Positions 39,208 to 48,159 of a stretch of 48,159 nucleotides of DNA are shown here, one piece after another. Under the pieces are notes generated by a model, which saw only the letters and a list, made by a program, of their open reading frames with translations, made no database searches and had not been told where the DNA came from. Source of the stretch: a virus; IMG/VR virus record IMGVR_UViG_3300030520_001134, positions 1 to 48,159 of that record. One strand, given 5' to 3'. The translations under genes and the position numbers were made by a program. Position 1 is the first letter of the stretch. Each line of letters begins with the position of its first letter.

Positions 39208-39487
39208 GGCCTCCGAACCTTCCCCTGCGTTCGCTGCCGACCTCCGCGAATTTCTGCAGTCCGCCGAGGCCCAGGAAGTTCTCGGGCTGATGAACTTTCA
39301 GACCTGTCCCCTAGCGGACGTCTTTCGCGCGGTCGGCGTGGCGATCCCCCGCAAGGTCGAAAGTGAGCAGGCCCACGTCCTGGCATGGTTACTAGGCCTG
39401 GCGGCGGAGCATGGGGCGGCCTGGCATGATGCCAGTGCAAAACAGATTGAGGACCTGGTTGCGTTGGCGAGGACCGCCCGTGGCTGA
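39200..39487 (+). CDS. Phage early protein, unknown
   Basis: 95 residues, helical (AADLREFLQSAEAQEVLGLM; AHVLAWLLGLAAEHGAAWHD). It overlaps both neighbours by 8 nt. The close coupling to the HerA-like ATPase gene downstream suggests a partner, but no motif was seen. Confidence 0.6.
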   Translation: MTRASEPSPAFAADLREFLQSAEAQEVLGLMNFQTCPLADVFRAVGVAIPRKVESEQAHVLAWLLGLAAEHGAAWHDASAKQIEDLVALARTARG

Positions 39488-41189
39488 TCCCCCCATCCCC
39501 GCCGCCGCCCTGGAAAACCATATCGCCTTTCTGGGCAAGACCGGCAGCGGCAAGTCCAATGCGGCGAAGACAGTGGTGGAGCGGCTGCTCGATGTCGAGG
39601 AGCGGGTCTGTATCATCGACCCGACCGGGACATGGTACGGCCTGCGCCTGACCCGGGCGCGTAAGCCCTCGCCCTACAAGGTCACCATCTTCGGCGGCCT
39701 GCATGGGGACCTGGCCATCGGCGGCGCCCATGGCGCGGCGATCGCCGAGGTGGTGGCGACGTCGTCGACCTCGGCGATCATCGACACGCGCTCGATGACA
39801 GTGCGCGACCGCACCCGCTTCTTCGCCGATTTCGCCGAGACCCTGCTGCGCACCAATCGCGGCATCCTGACCCTCGTCATCGATGAGGCCCAGCTTTTCG
39901 CGCCCAAGGGCAAGATCGCCGACCCCAGCGCCGGCCTGATGCTGGCCGCCACCAACAACCTGCTCGGCCTCGGCCGGGGCGTCGGCCTGCGGATCATCCT
40001 GCTCAGCCAGCGGCCGGCCAAGGTGCACAACGACTGCCTCGGCTCTGTCGAGACCCTGGTCGCCATGCGGATGCTGCTGCCCCACGATCGGGTGGCCGTG
40101 ATGGAATGGGTCAAGGAACAAGCAGATCCGGACCAGGCGCGCGAGATCCTCGCCTCGCTGCCCCTGCTGCCCACGGGAGACGCCTGGATCTGGTCGCCGG
40201 GCCTCGATCTGCTGGAGCGCCGGCATTTCCCCCTGGCCCGCACCTTTGACAGCGGCCGCCCCGTCCCGGCGGGCGAGAGCGGCCCGCAGCTGGCGCCCCT
40301 CGACATCCGCGCGATCACCGCCCGCCTGGACCAGGTCGCCGCCGACGTCGTCGCCAACGACCCCAAGGCCCTGAGAGCCGAGATCGCGCGCCTGAAGGCC
40401 GCGCCGCCGGCGGCCGCCGCCAAGCCGATCGACGCCTCGGCCGAGCAGATCGCCGTGGCGGAGGAGCGGGGGTTCAACCGGGGAGTCGAACATGGGAAGC
40501 TTTTGGAATGGCGCCGCTGGTCGACGCTGGCTTCGGAGCGCATCGATGCGGCGCTCGCGGGGCTTATGGCGTCGTTCGAAGAAGATCGCCGTCAAGCCGA
40601 AGACGCCGCGCCGCCACCGGCGTTCAAGTCCAGGCCTAAAAAGGCCGACGCCCTTCACCCCGCTATGCCGTCGCCCGTGGTCGACAAAGCTGGTGACGCC
40701 GGCGCGGGGGCCGTGGCGCCCAGCCTGACGCCCTCGCAACTCCACCTCCTGAAATCGCTCGCCTGGTGGAGTGCGATGGGCCATGGCCGGCCGACGCGGA
40801 CCCAGGTCGCGGCGATCGCCGGCTGGACCCCGAAGGGTAGCAACCTGCGCGGCCGCCTGGCCGAGCTCTCGGCCGCCGGTCTGATCGAGTATCCCCAGAC
40901 TGGGCTTGTCAGCCTGACCGATGCGGGACGCGCCATCGCCCCCGCGCTAGATCGATCGCTCAAGCTCCGCGAGGCGATCTCGGCCGCGCTTACCCCGTCG
41001 CAGCGGACGCTGTTTGAAACCCTGCTGGTCATGGACTGGTCGGTCCCCCGCGACGAGCTCGCCGCCGCTGTCGGCTGGGAGCCGAAGGGCAGCAATCTGC
41101 GGGGACGCCTGGCCGAGCTGAGCGCCCTGGAGATCGTCACCTATCCGAGCACCGGCCTCGTGCGGCTTCAGGATTGGGCGAAGGGCTGA
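39480..41189 (+). CDS. HerA/FtsK-superfamily ATPase with duplicated C-terminal winged helix
   Basis: 569 residues, GTG start. Walker A GKTGSGKS at 19-26, Walker B LTLVIDEAQLF at about 143-153, and a RIILLSQRPAK sensor segment define a HerA-type (DUF87) ring ATPase, usually a DNA translocase. A linker and coiled region (about 290-410) follow. Residues 417-485 and 505-569 are two copies of one winged helix, both with GW-x-PKGSNLRGRLAEL and YPxTGLVxL. It could translocate DNA in replication, recombination or segregation; packaging is unlikely, since a GpA terminase is present. Start overlaps the upstream gene. Confidence 0.82.
   Translation: MADPPIPAAALENHIAFLGKTGSGKSNAAKTVVERLLDVEERVCIIDPTGTWYGLRLTRARKPSPYKVTIFGGLHGDLAIGGAHGAAIAEVVATSSTSAIIDTRSMTVRDRTRFFADFAETLLRTNRGILTLVIDEAQLFAPKGKIADPSAGLMLAATNNLLGLGRGVGLRIILLSQRPAKVHNDCLGSVETLVAMRMLLPHDRVAVMEWVKEQADPDQAREILASLPLLPTGDAWIWSPGLDLLERRHFPLARTFDSGRPVPAGESGPQLAPLDIRAITARLDQVAADVVANDPKALRAEIARLKAAPPAAAAKPIDASAEQIAVAEERGFNRGVEHGKLLEWRRWSTLASERIDAALAGLMASFEEDRRQAEDAAPPPAFKSRPKKADALHPAMPSPVVDKAGDAGAGAVAPSLTPSQLHLLKSLAWWSAMGHGRPTRTQVAAIAGWTPKGSNLRGRLAELSAAGLIEYPQTGLVSLTDAGRAIAPALDRSLKLREAISAALTPSQRTLFETLLVMDWSVPRDELAAAVGWEPKGSNLRGRLAELSALEIVTYPSTGLVRLQDWAKG

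Positions 41190-41477: not shown

Positions 41478-41485
<8 letters not shown>
41189..41485 (+). CDS. Small protein downstream of the HerA-like ATPase, unknown
   Basis: 98 residues from the ATG overlapping the ATPase stop (TGATG). Helical: ALELLPRMLADASHWLSYEM, REHVAALCMAFVAVASRAMA, NWLRQIADHLERHG. It overlaps the DUF5131 gene by 8 nt. No family recognised. Confidence 0.6.
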
Positions 41486-42584
<1,099 letters not shown>

Positions 42585-46581: not shown

Positions 46582-48159
46582 ATGCGCGTCGCCCTCTATG
46601 CCCGTTTTAGCGATTCCGAGCTGCAGAATGAACGCTCGGCCGACGACCAGCTCGAGGCTCTGCGCCAGGTTGTCAAAGCCCGCGGCTGGACCGAGACGCG
46701 GGCCTATGCCGACCACGGCATTTCCGGCGCGGCGCTGGCCAACCGGCCCGCGGTGCAGTCGCTTTTGCGCGACGCGGCCGCCGGCGGCTTTGATTGCGTG
46801 CTGGCGGAGGACCTGGACCGGCTGAGCCGCGACCAGGAGGGCACGGCCCATCTGTTCAAACACCTGACCTTCGCCGGCGTCCTGCTGGAGACCCTCGGCC
46901 AGGGACGGATTTCCGTCATGCATGTGGGCCTGGCCGGGACCATGAACCAGCTCTTCCTGGAGCAGCTGGCGGCAAAGACCCGGCGTGGCCTGGTCGCCAA
47001 GGTCAAGGCCGGCTTCTCCGGCGGCGGCCACACCTTCGGCTACGCCATCGTTGCCAAGGGGGTCTATGCGGTCGACCCGGACCAGGCGCGGGTCGTGCGC
47101 AGGATCTTTACCGACTACGACCTCGGCGCGTCCCCCCGGGCGATCGCCGCCAGGCTGAACGCTGAAGGCGTTCCGGGGCCCAGCGGACGCCAGTGGAGCG
47201 CATCGACGATCAACGGCGATCGCCGCGCCGGCGACGGAGTCCTGCACCAGGAGCTTTACGTCGGAACCCGGGTGTTCAACCGCCGGCGTTTCCGCAAGCA
47301 TCCGGAGACCGGCCGACGCTCAAGCGTGCTGAACCCCACCGAGTCCTGGATCCGCATGCCGACGCCGGACCTGCGGATCATCGACCAGGATCTCTGGGCC
47401 CGGGTGCAGGCCCGCAAGAGCGCCCTGGGCGCCGCGCCGGCGCAACGCGCCAGGCGGCCGACGCGGCTGCTGTCCGGACTGCTGGTCTGCGCCCTCTGCC
47501 ATGGGCCCATGACGGTGCAGGGCAAGCGGTACGCCTGCTCGACCAGGCGCGAGAAGGGAACCTGCACGAACGCCAGCTATGCCGGCTGCACGGCCGTGGA
47601 AACCCGGGTGATCGTCGGCTTGCGAGACAACCTGCTTCACCCGGACGTGGTCGCCGAGGCGATCCGGACGTTCCAGGCGGAAATGCAGGCGGCCACGCGA
47701 TCGGCGATCACCGATCGGGCCAAGATCGAGGAGGAGCTGCAGGGACTGCAGCGCCGCCTCGACCGAGCGTCCGACGCCTATCAGCGCGGCCTGTTCGAGC
47801 TCGATGAGCTCGAGGCGCAGATCTCGCCGCTGAAGGCCCGGCGGGCGGCGCTCCGCGACCAGCTGGCCATGGCGGACGCGCCGCCGGTATATCGTATCCA
47901 TCCCCACGCCGCGGAGATGTATCGGTCTATCGTTGAGAACCTCGCCGGGGCCCTGGAGAAGGATTCCTCACAGGACATGCGCAATGCGCTACGCGGGCTA
48001 ATCAGCCGCGTCATCTTCACACCGGGCGAGGCGCGCGGTGCGTTCGATCTAAGCGTCCAAGGACGCATCTCGGGGCTGCTGAGTAATTCAACAGCCCCGG
48101 ATGTAGTGTCAATGATGGGTGCGGGGACAGGATTTGAACCTGTGACCTTCAGGTTATGA
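46582..48159 (+). CDS. Large serine recombinase (phage integrase)
   Basis: 525 residues. The catalytic domain (1-145) has the nucleophile Ser10 in YARFSDSE and the arginines of DLDRLSRDQ (80, 83). The recombinase domain (about 150-260) begins HTFGYAIVAKG. A zinc ribbon has Cys303, 306, 319 and 328. A coiled coil at about 372-425 suits the synaptic arm of large serine integrases. It would integrate and excise the prophage. The last 13 residues (GAGTGFEPVTFRL) and the stop are encoded by the antisense of the tRNA half at the window edge, so integrase and att site are physically fused. Last gene of the early operon. Confidence 0.95.
   Translation: MRVALYARFSDSELQNERSADDQLEALRQVVKARGWTETRAYADHGISGAALANRPAVQSLLRDAAAGGFDCVLAEDLDRLSRDQEGTAHLFKHLTFAGVLLETLGQGRISVMHVGLAGTMNQLFLEQLAAKTRRGLVAKVKAGFSGGGHTFGYAIVAKGVYAVDPDQARVVRRIFTDYDLGASPRAIAARLNAEGVPGPSGRQWSASTINGDRRAGDGVLHQELYVGTRVFNRRRFRKHPETGRRSSVLNPTESWIRMPTPDLRIIDQDLWARVQARKSALGAAPAQRARRPTRLLSGLLVCALCHGPMTVQGKRYACSTRREKGTCTNASYAGCTAVETRVIVGLRDNLLHPDVVAEAIRTFQAEMQAATRSAITDRAKIEEELQGLQRRLDRASDAYQRGLFELDELEAQISPLKARRAALRDQLAMADAPPVYRIHPHAAEMYRSIVENLAGALEKDSSQDMRNALRGLISRVIFTPGEARGAFDLSVQGRISGLLSNSTAPDVVSMMGAGTGFEPVTFRL
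48116..48159 (-). tRNA. 3' half of an initiator tRNA(fMet) (CAU) gene, cut by the window edge
   Basis: Reading the minus strand from 48159: TCATAA (anticodon CAT), CCTGA (anticodon stem), AGGTC (variable loop), ACAGG-TTCAAAT-CCTGT (perfect T stem-loop), CCCCGCA (acceptor strand), then C and CCA. Anticodon-loop context and acceptor CCCCGCA match alphaproteobacterial initiator tRNA. The 5' half would lie to the right of the window. The base after the acceptor strand is C where A is usual, which may mark the end of the shared core. Confidence 0.85.
48119..48159. other. Prophage attachment half-site inside tRNA(fMet)
   Basis: The serine recombinase frame runs into the tRNA 3' half, the classic signature of an attP located at the end of an integrase gene and fused to a tRNA on integration. 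The phage restores the tRNA 3' end. The core repeat should recur at the far, left end of the prophage, outside this window; no copy is seen near position 1. Confidence 0.72.

Follow-up and report, generated by a model that had tools for sequence, protein, structure and literature searches.

An intact serine integrase at the right end of an integrated phage

The window, a stretch of viral DNA of 48,159 nucleotides, ends on the right exactly at the stop codon of an integrase gene, and many sister viral records likewise terminate precisely at the integrase stop. The gene encodes an intact large serine integrase of 525 amino acids (Table 1). Its serine recombinase identity, proposed in the initial annotation, is borne out by a domain search of the window, which returned Resolvase, Recombinase and zinc-ribbon matches (PF00239, PF07508 and PF13408) and the PHROG 'integrase' family (phrog_95). 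With its catalytic Ser10, accompanied by Arg8, and a coiled-coil, the protein has all the elements of a large serine integrase. Residues S10, R8, D79 and R83 and four cysteines are invariant in an alignment with its relatives. An AlphaFold2 model has a mean pLDDT of 83, falling below 50 across residues 497–522, a C-terminal tail that is disordered in the model. Other genes in the window encode a portal, a head–tail adaptor, a sheath, a DNA-circularisation protein and a tail lysozyme; the window is an integrated tailed phage, visible up to its own right end. The right arm also holds genes for a DUF5131 protein (PF07505) and a HerA/TrwB-like ATPase.

Table 1. Positions of the integrase gene, its attachment-site elements and two right-arm genes in the window
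Feature	Position	Strand	Basis
HerA/TrwB-like ATPase gene	39411..41189		
DUF5131 gene	41478..42584		PF07505
Large serine integrase, intact	46582..48159	+	PF00239, PF07508, PF13408; phrog_95; AlphaFold2
Left attP half-site (P arm), predicted, within the integrase gene	48095..48115	+	Analogy with dyads of relatives
3′ half of initiator tRNA(fMet), truncated at the record end	48116..48159	-	Sequence; complete gene in relatives
Phage-borne part of the shared core: antisense CCA, discriminator C73, acceptor 3′ strand 72–66	48116..48126	+	Block TGGKTGCGGGR common to attP, attB, attL and attR in relatives
Putative crossover dinucleotide, tRNA positions 66/65	48126..48127	+	attP dyad geometry
Host-derived ORF end: antisense tRNA-fMet T-arm, variable region and anticodon arm; codes TGFEPVTFRL, then TGA	48127..48159	+	Antisense of tRNA-Met(CAT) in relatives; missing from un-integrated relatives

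The integrase gene closes on the antisense of an initiator tRNA

The integrase gene finishes with 44 bases (TGGGTGCGGGGACAGGATTTGAACCTGTGACCTTCAGGTTATGA) complementary to tRNA-fMet, position 76 through the anticodon; GFEPVTFRL is thus read against the 3′ half of the tRNA, and the integrase stop codon overlaps the anticodon. The record breaks off inside the tRNA, and ARAGORN accordingly reports none in the window. In relatives whose sequence runs further, the same program reports an entire tRNA-Met(CAT) gene that covers the integrase C-terminus on the other strand. Together with the sequence of the window, this confirms the earlier proposal that the C-terminus is antisense to initiator tRNA(fMet); the relatives also bear out a second one, that the tRNA stays intact upon integration. 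The initial annotation had also held that tRNA targeting is unusual for a serine integrase, in agreement with a review of mycobacteriophages in which the tyrosine-integrase genomes exclusively use attB sites overlapping tRNA genes (PMC9262239).

Protein searches recovered relatives, mostly 35–57% identical, from alphaproteobacterial plasmids, species genomes and viral contigs; the viral contigs gave none when searched with the window integrase alone and yielded them once alignments were used. A tRNA lies antisense to the gene end in 128 of 186 non-redundant integrases (<90% identity): tRNA-fMet in 66, elongator tRNA-Met in 51, a third CAT tRNA in 6, a single Ser(GCT), a single Gly(TCC) and the rest without assignment. 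The frame that yields GFEPxTxxL is used in 116 of the 128 (a bias of 116:11:1), a count that leans towards this class since the genome scan patterns included GFEPxTFRL; different patterns served for the viral scans. The integrase family of which the window is a member is large and chiefly alphaproteobacterial, and in every integrated relative the integrase and tRNA genes converge. A literature search, with subscription journals poorly covered, found no description of serine integrases in tRNA-Met genes and none of an integrase tail coded by the target tRNA, although such elements may appear, without remark, in island databases (PMC12884075); searching the literature for the C-terminal motifs of these integrases also returned nothing.

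Attachment sites in relatives and in the window

The anatomy of attP, attB, attL and attR can be read directly in relatives, which carry a complete tRNA at attR and a short direct repeat at the other end. Their attP and attB share about 11–12 bp, comprising the CCA end, the discriminator and the acceptor 3′ strand. attP is an inverted repeat, imperfect and lying within the 3′ end of the integrase gene; it surrounds the common block, for example TTAGGGTATCGA-TGGGTGCGGGGACGCGATGTGG-TCGATACCCTAA in one relative (L117), and dyads such as GGTTGCG-GGGGCT-CGCAACC and TTGCG-GGAGGG-CGCAA have a 6-bp spacer between their TGCG and CGCA arms. A second class of the same integrases has the common block TGGTTGCGGGR only, followed by divergence; the elongator-Met version of the block is TGGTAGCGGR. 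Given an attL repeat of about 11–12 bp in relatives, crossover probably occurs near tRNA positions 66/65, the spacer centre of the attP dyads. An early model with crossover at the anticodon and tandem copies was dropped on reading the junctions.

In an uncultured Rhodobacteraceae genome (G037), attL runs from the native host terminator through TGGTTGCGGGA into phage GGGCGCAACC, and attR reads integrase, CAAGTGGTTGCGGGA, then GTAGGATTTG, that is, integrase, CAAG, TGGTTGCGGGA and tRNA. A paralogous tRNA gene (attB) in the same genome is unoccupied: it shares the left flank but has no integrase. Pairs of attL and attR on one contig also occur in Devosia riboflavina (36.7 kb apart), on plasmids of Methylosinus C49 (51.7 kb), Azospirillum brasilense (46.4 kb) and Haematobacter (74 kb), and in an alphaproteobacterial metagenome-assembled genome (G031). 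A Maritalea element (G033) has clear attL and attR sites and was left out as lead example because its integrase contains an in-frame stop.

In the window, a single putative attP half-site is visible. By analogy with the attP dyads of relatives such as L117, L113, L075, L077 and L003, the left half-site would lie around TAGTGTCA, and its inverted partner, for example TGACACTA, is expected beyond the record in attL, which is predicted to consist of host flank and TGGGTGCGGGG followed by a phage arm bearing that partner. A second copy of the half tRNA, sought across the window, was absent (longest shared word, 12 bases), as expected because the displaced repeat of relatives is about 11–12 bp and here falls outside the record. 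The attL sequences of relatives are identical only over about TGGTTGCGGGR, which contradicts the proposal that the shared core is the whole 3′ half to the anticodon and means that the host supplies the last 9–10 or so residues and the stop. The earlier view that the site dictates the protein end survives in this form, with the host rather than the shared core providing it. Likewise, the last 13 residues, all attributed to the tRNA complement in the initial annotation, appear host-read only from about T516/G517, a boundary drawn from relatives; sequence up to about 48126 (G515) would be the phage's own copy.

At some loci the att core (GCAAGTAAAGATGGTTGCGGGG.. with ..ACTTGC) occurs two or three times in succession, at intervals of about 50 bp, in the attL regions of W04, G032 and W06 (L174, L181, L206 and L208) and at two integrase ends (L010 and L034). 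Some of these cores are read through inside the integrase gene, and the arrays resemble scars or landing strips of repeated integration. The attP core of Microcystis phage Mae-JY30 (L003, PP438422), TGGTAGCGGAGG, matches alphaproteobacterial elongator tRNA-Met, so this phage may really infect an alphaproteobacterium present in the Microcystis culture.

Integration exchanges the integrase tail

That integration swaps a phage-coded integrase C-terminal tail for one coded by the host tRNA is well supported. The core of about 11–12 bp lies inside the integrase 3′ end, and integration therefore replaces whatever the phage encodes beyond it. Both states of the tail are found among relatives. The free-form genome record of Rhizobium phage RR1-A has an integrase ending in GERFEQSPQIILGRFVA; a prophage (L450) whose integrase is 87% identical, computed without the last 40 residues, ends in GEGLEPPTRGL. 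Where one record holds prophages in tandem, bringing together the two arms that belong to a single phage yields the tail EVRLTLSPQIILGRFAA, close to that of RR1-A, with DNA differences mostly at synonymous sites. The tail IILGRF[AV]A is conserved between RR1-A and another phage, with mostly synonymous changes. Un-integrated phages lack the half tRNA, and the integrase of the free phage has a different C-terminus.

For the window, we propose that attP sits inside the 3′ end of the serine integrase gene and that attB is the 3′ end of the host initiator tRNA. With the exchange placed at the foot of the acceptor stem, the tRNA would survive whole, since CCA, the discriminator and the acceptor 3′ strand come with the phage. 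The phage-coded tail would move to attL, and the integrase gene would then be closed by the host tRNA read backwards, giving GFEPVTFRL and a stop over the anticodon.

Free tails often resemble degrons

An Ala-Ala ending is roughly four times as common in un-integrated tails as in other ORFs of the same records (13/48 versus 61/953, or 6.4%; P = 7e-6), and 22 of the 48 tails end in Ala, against 17.9% of those 953 ORFs; these P values count related integrases (<90% identity) as independent and come from a partly post hoc search, and kinship weakens them. Fresh and reconstituted tails, seen after the idea had formed, end in Ala-Ala in 5 of 14 cases (P = 0.0013, subject to the same kinship). None of 128 integrated tails ends in Ala. 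Two different reading frames lead to the Ala-Ala-type ending, which the remaining frames of the tail DNA never produce (0/49). About half of all free tails lack a degron-like end, and among those reconstituted from bacterial elements only 2 of 8 end in Ala-Ala. A narrower hydrophobic-Ala pattern, chosen after the first set, was not upheld in the fresh set (1/6), and the degron argument rests on the plain A and AA endings.

The Ala-Ala free tails resemble ssrA-type degrons, from which instability of the free integrase may be inferred, and the statistics argue for a tag in part of the free forms of relatives; there, the swap would seem to remove a "destroy me" tag. With a frequent ssrA-like (..AA) free tail, the integrase of a circular or lytic phage would turn over fast, whereas that of a prophage would be stable; excision would bring the degron back and limit re-integration. 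Serine integrases need a directionality factor for excision, and a stable prophage integrase would therefore be safe. On the tail sequences, we regard this degron mechanism as evenly balanced between true and false. The explanation as a whole, with attP in the integrase end, attB in the tRNA, the tail swap and, less firmly, a degron role, is very probable.

Alternative explanations

A neutral swap, in which attP merely overlaps the gene end as in compact phages and the tail is dispensable, has nearly an even chance of being right. Here, Ala-rich ends would stem from GC-rich DNA and shared ancestry; the modelled disorder of the tail, the many free tails that are not degron-like and the low yield of Ala-Ala from bacterial elements all fit. 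It sits less easily with the excess of Ala-Ala over same-record ORFs and its absence from other frames of the same DNA, with the conservation of IILGRF[AV]A despite mostly synonymous change, and with the strong bias for one tRNA frame. We consider it improbable that the arrangement is chiefly antisense regulation, with a strong tRNA transcript reading into the convergent integrase and silencing it in the prophage while the tail is incidental. Convergence is universal among integrated relatives, and inspection by eye shows hairpins at some integrase 3′ ends where the tRNA transcript might stop, but this layout is expected of any element that enters a tRNA 3′ end with its integrase there, and the tail bias is left unexplained.

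Classical tRNA-restoring integration, with crossover in the anticodon loop, a phage carrying the whole 3′ half and the same integrase end in both states, is very unlikely and already contradicted for relatives. Several loci do show a GFEPxTFRL integrase with non-tRNA DNA after TGAG and a second full tRNA 9–58 kb on. That second tRNA, however, has no integrase in front of it, which points to a different element having gone into the anticodon loop afterwards; moreover, attL of the serine-integrase elements holds only about 11–12 bp of tRNA, and un-integrated phages lack the half tRNA. Least probable, by a little, is that integration rewrites the tRNA, with a phage discriminator C73 replacing the usual A73 and altering the initiator tRNA. 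The window and its clade do carry TGGGTGCGGGG in attP and attR, but C73 is native to 12 of the 289 alphaproteobacterial genomes, almost none of which has an integrase at that place, and the G031 attL is C73 on the host side too; these native genomes and this attL effectively refute an A73-to-C73 change. C73 in the window's clade reflects native-C73 hosts and hints at such a host for the window.

The elements inserted after TGAG in the anticodon loop of the same tRNA-fMet genes, beside the serine-integrase element, are 9–58 kb long (L098, L102, L132, L138 and L154–L161; genomes G034, G042 and G046). A conserved type of about 17 kb recurs among them, and they are probably tyrosine-integrase elements. 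Initiator tRNA genes with C73 (L459–L473) include one genome with C73 at all four copies found.

Comparison with known systems

The window integrase shares its domain order and catalytic serine, and its relatives also their short core and imperfectly palindromic attP, with serine integrases of the phiC31 and Bxb1 type. Known large serine integrases mostly target protein genes; beside them, it is unusual to aim at a tRNA and to keep attP within the coding end of the integrase itself. The recombinase of RR1-A (JF974314), 35% identical to that of the window, belongs to the same family and carries the un-integrated tail and an attP dyad; its core TGGTAGCGGGAGAG points to elongator tRNA-Met, whereas the window points to fMet. 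The IntM enzyme of Mesorhizobium integrative and conjugative elements also targets a tRNA-Met in Alphaproteobacteria but, unlike the window's integrase, is a tyrosine recombinase (PMC5882170, PMC9973854).

Integration-dependent immunity offers another parallel. In BPs-like mycobacteriophages both the repressor and the integrase are described as bearing ssrA-like tags, of which the repressor's is lost on integration (PMC9262239). There as here, a protein gene houses attP and a tRNA gene attB, and integration changes a C-terminus; loss of the ssrA-like tag is experimental in BPs (PMC9262239, PMC4557955) and inferred here. The BPs gene is a repressor, its enzyme a tyrosine integrase and its new end a truncation (PMC9262239, PMC4557955); here, attP is inside the serine integrase gene, not a repressor gene, and the new end is a tail of about ten residues read antisense from a tRNA. 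tRNA-dependent lysogeny (PMC10865867) shares a short core inside a tRNA gene, but uses a tyrosine integrase and destroys the tRNA, which a phage tRNA replaces. Here, the tRNA is restored in place: relatives have a complete tRNA at attR, and the window holds no tRNA gene.

Implications

Serine integrases are widely used as genome-engineering tools, and a large family aimed at a conserved, essential tRNA end would offer many enzymes with a predictable attB across Alphaproteobacteria. A tail switched by recombination itself would be a self-limiting control on the integrase, convergent with the mycobacteriophage repressor switch and built on a different enzyme, and the idea is testable with simple reporters. 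Somewhat short of an even bet is the broader possibility that widespread alphaproteobacterial phages and islands use the antisense of tRNA-Met as a spare coding exon that exchanges a degron tail for a stable one, such that integrase lifetime would become a repressor-independent read-out of integration.
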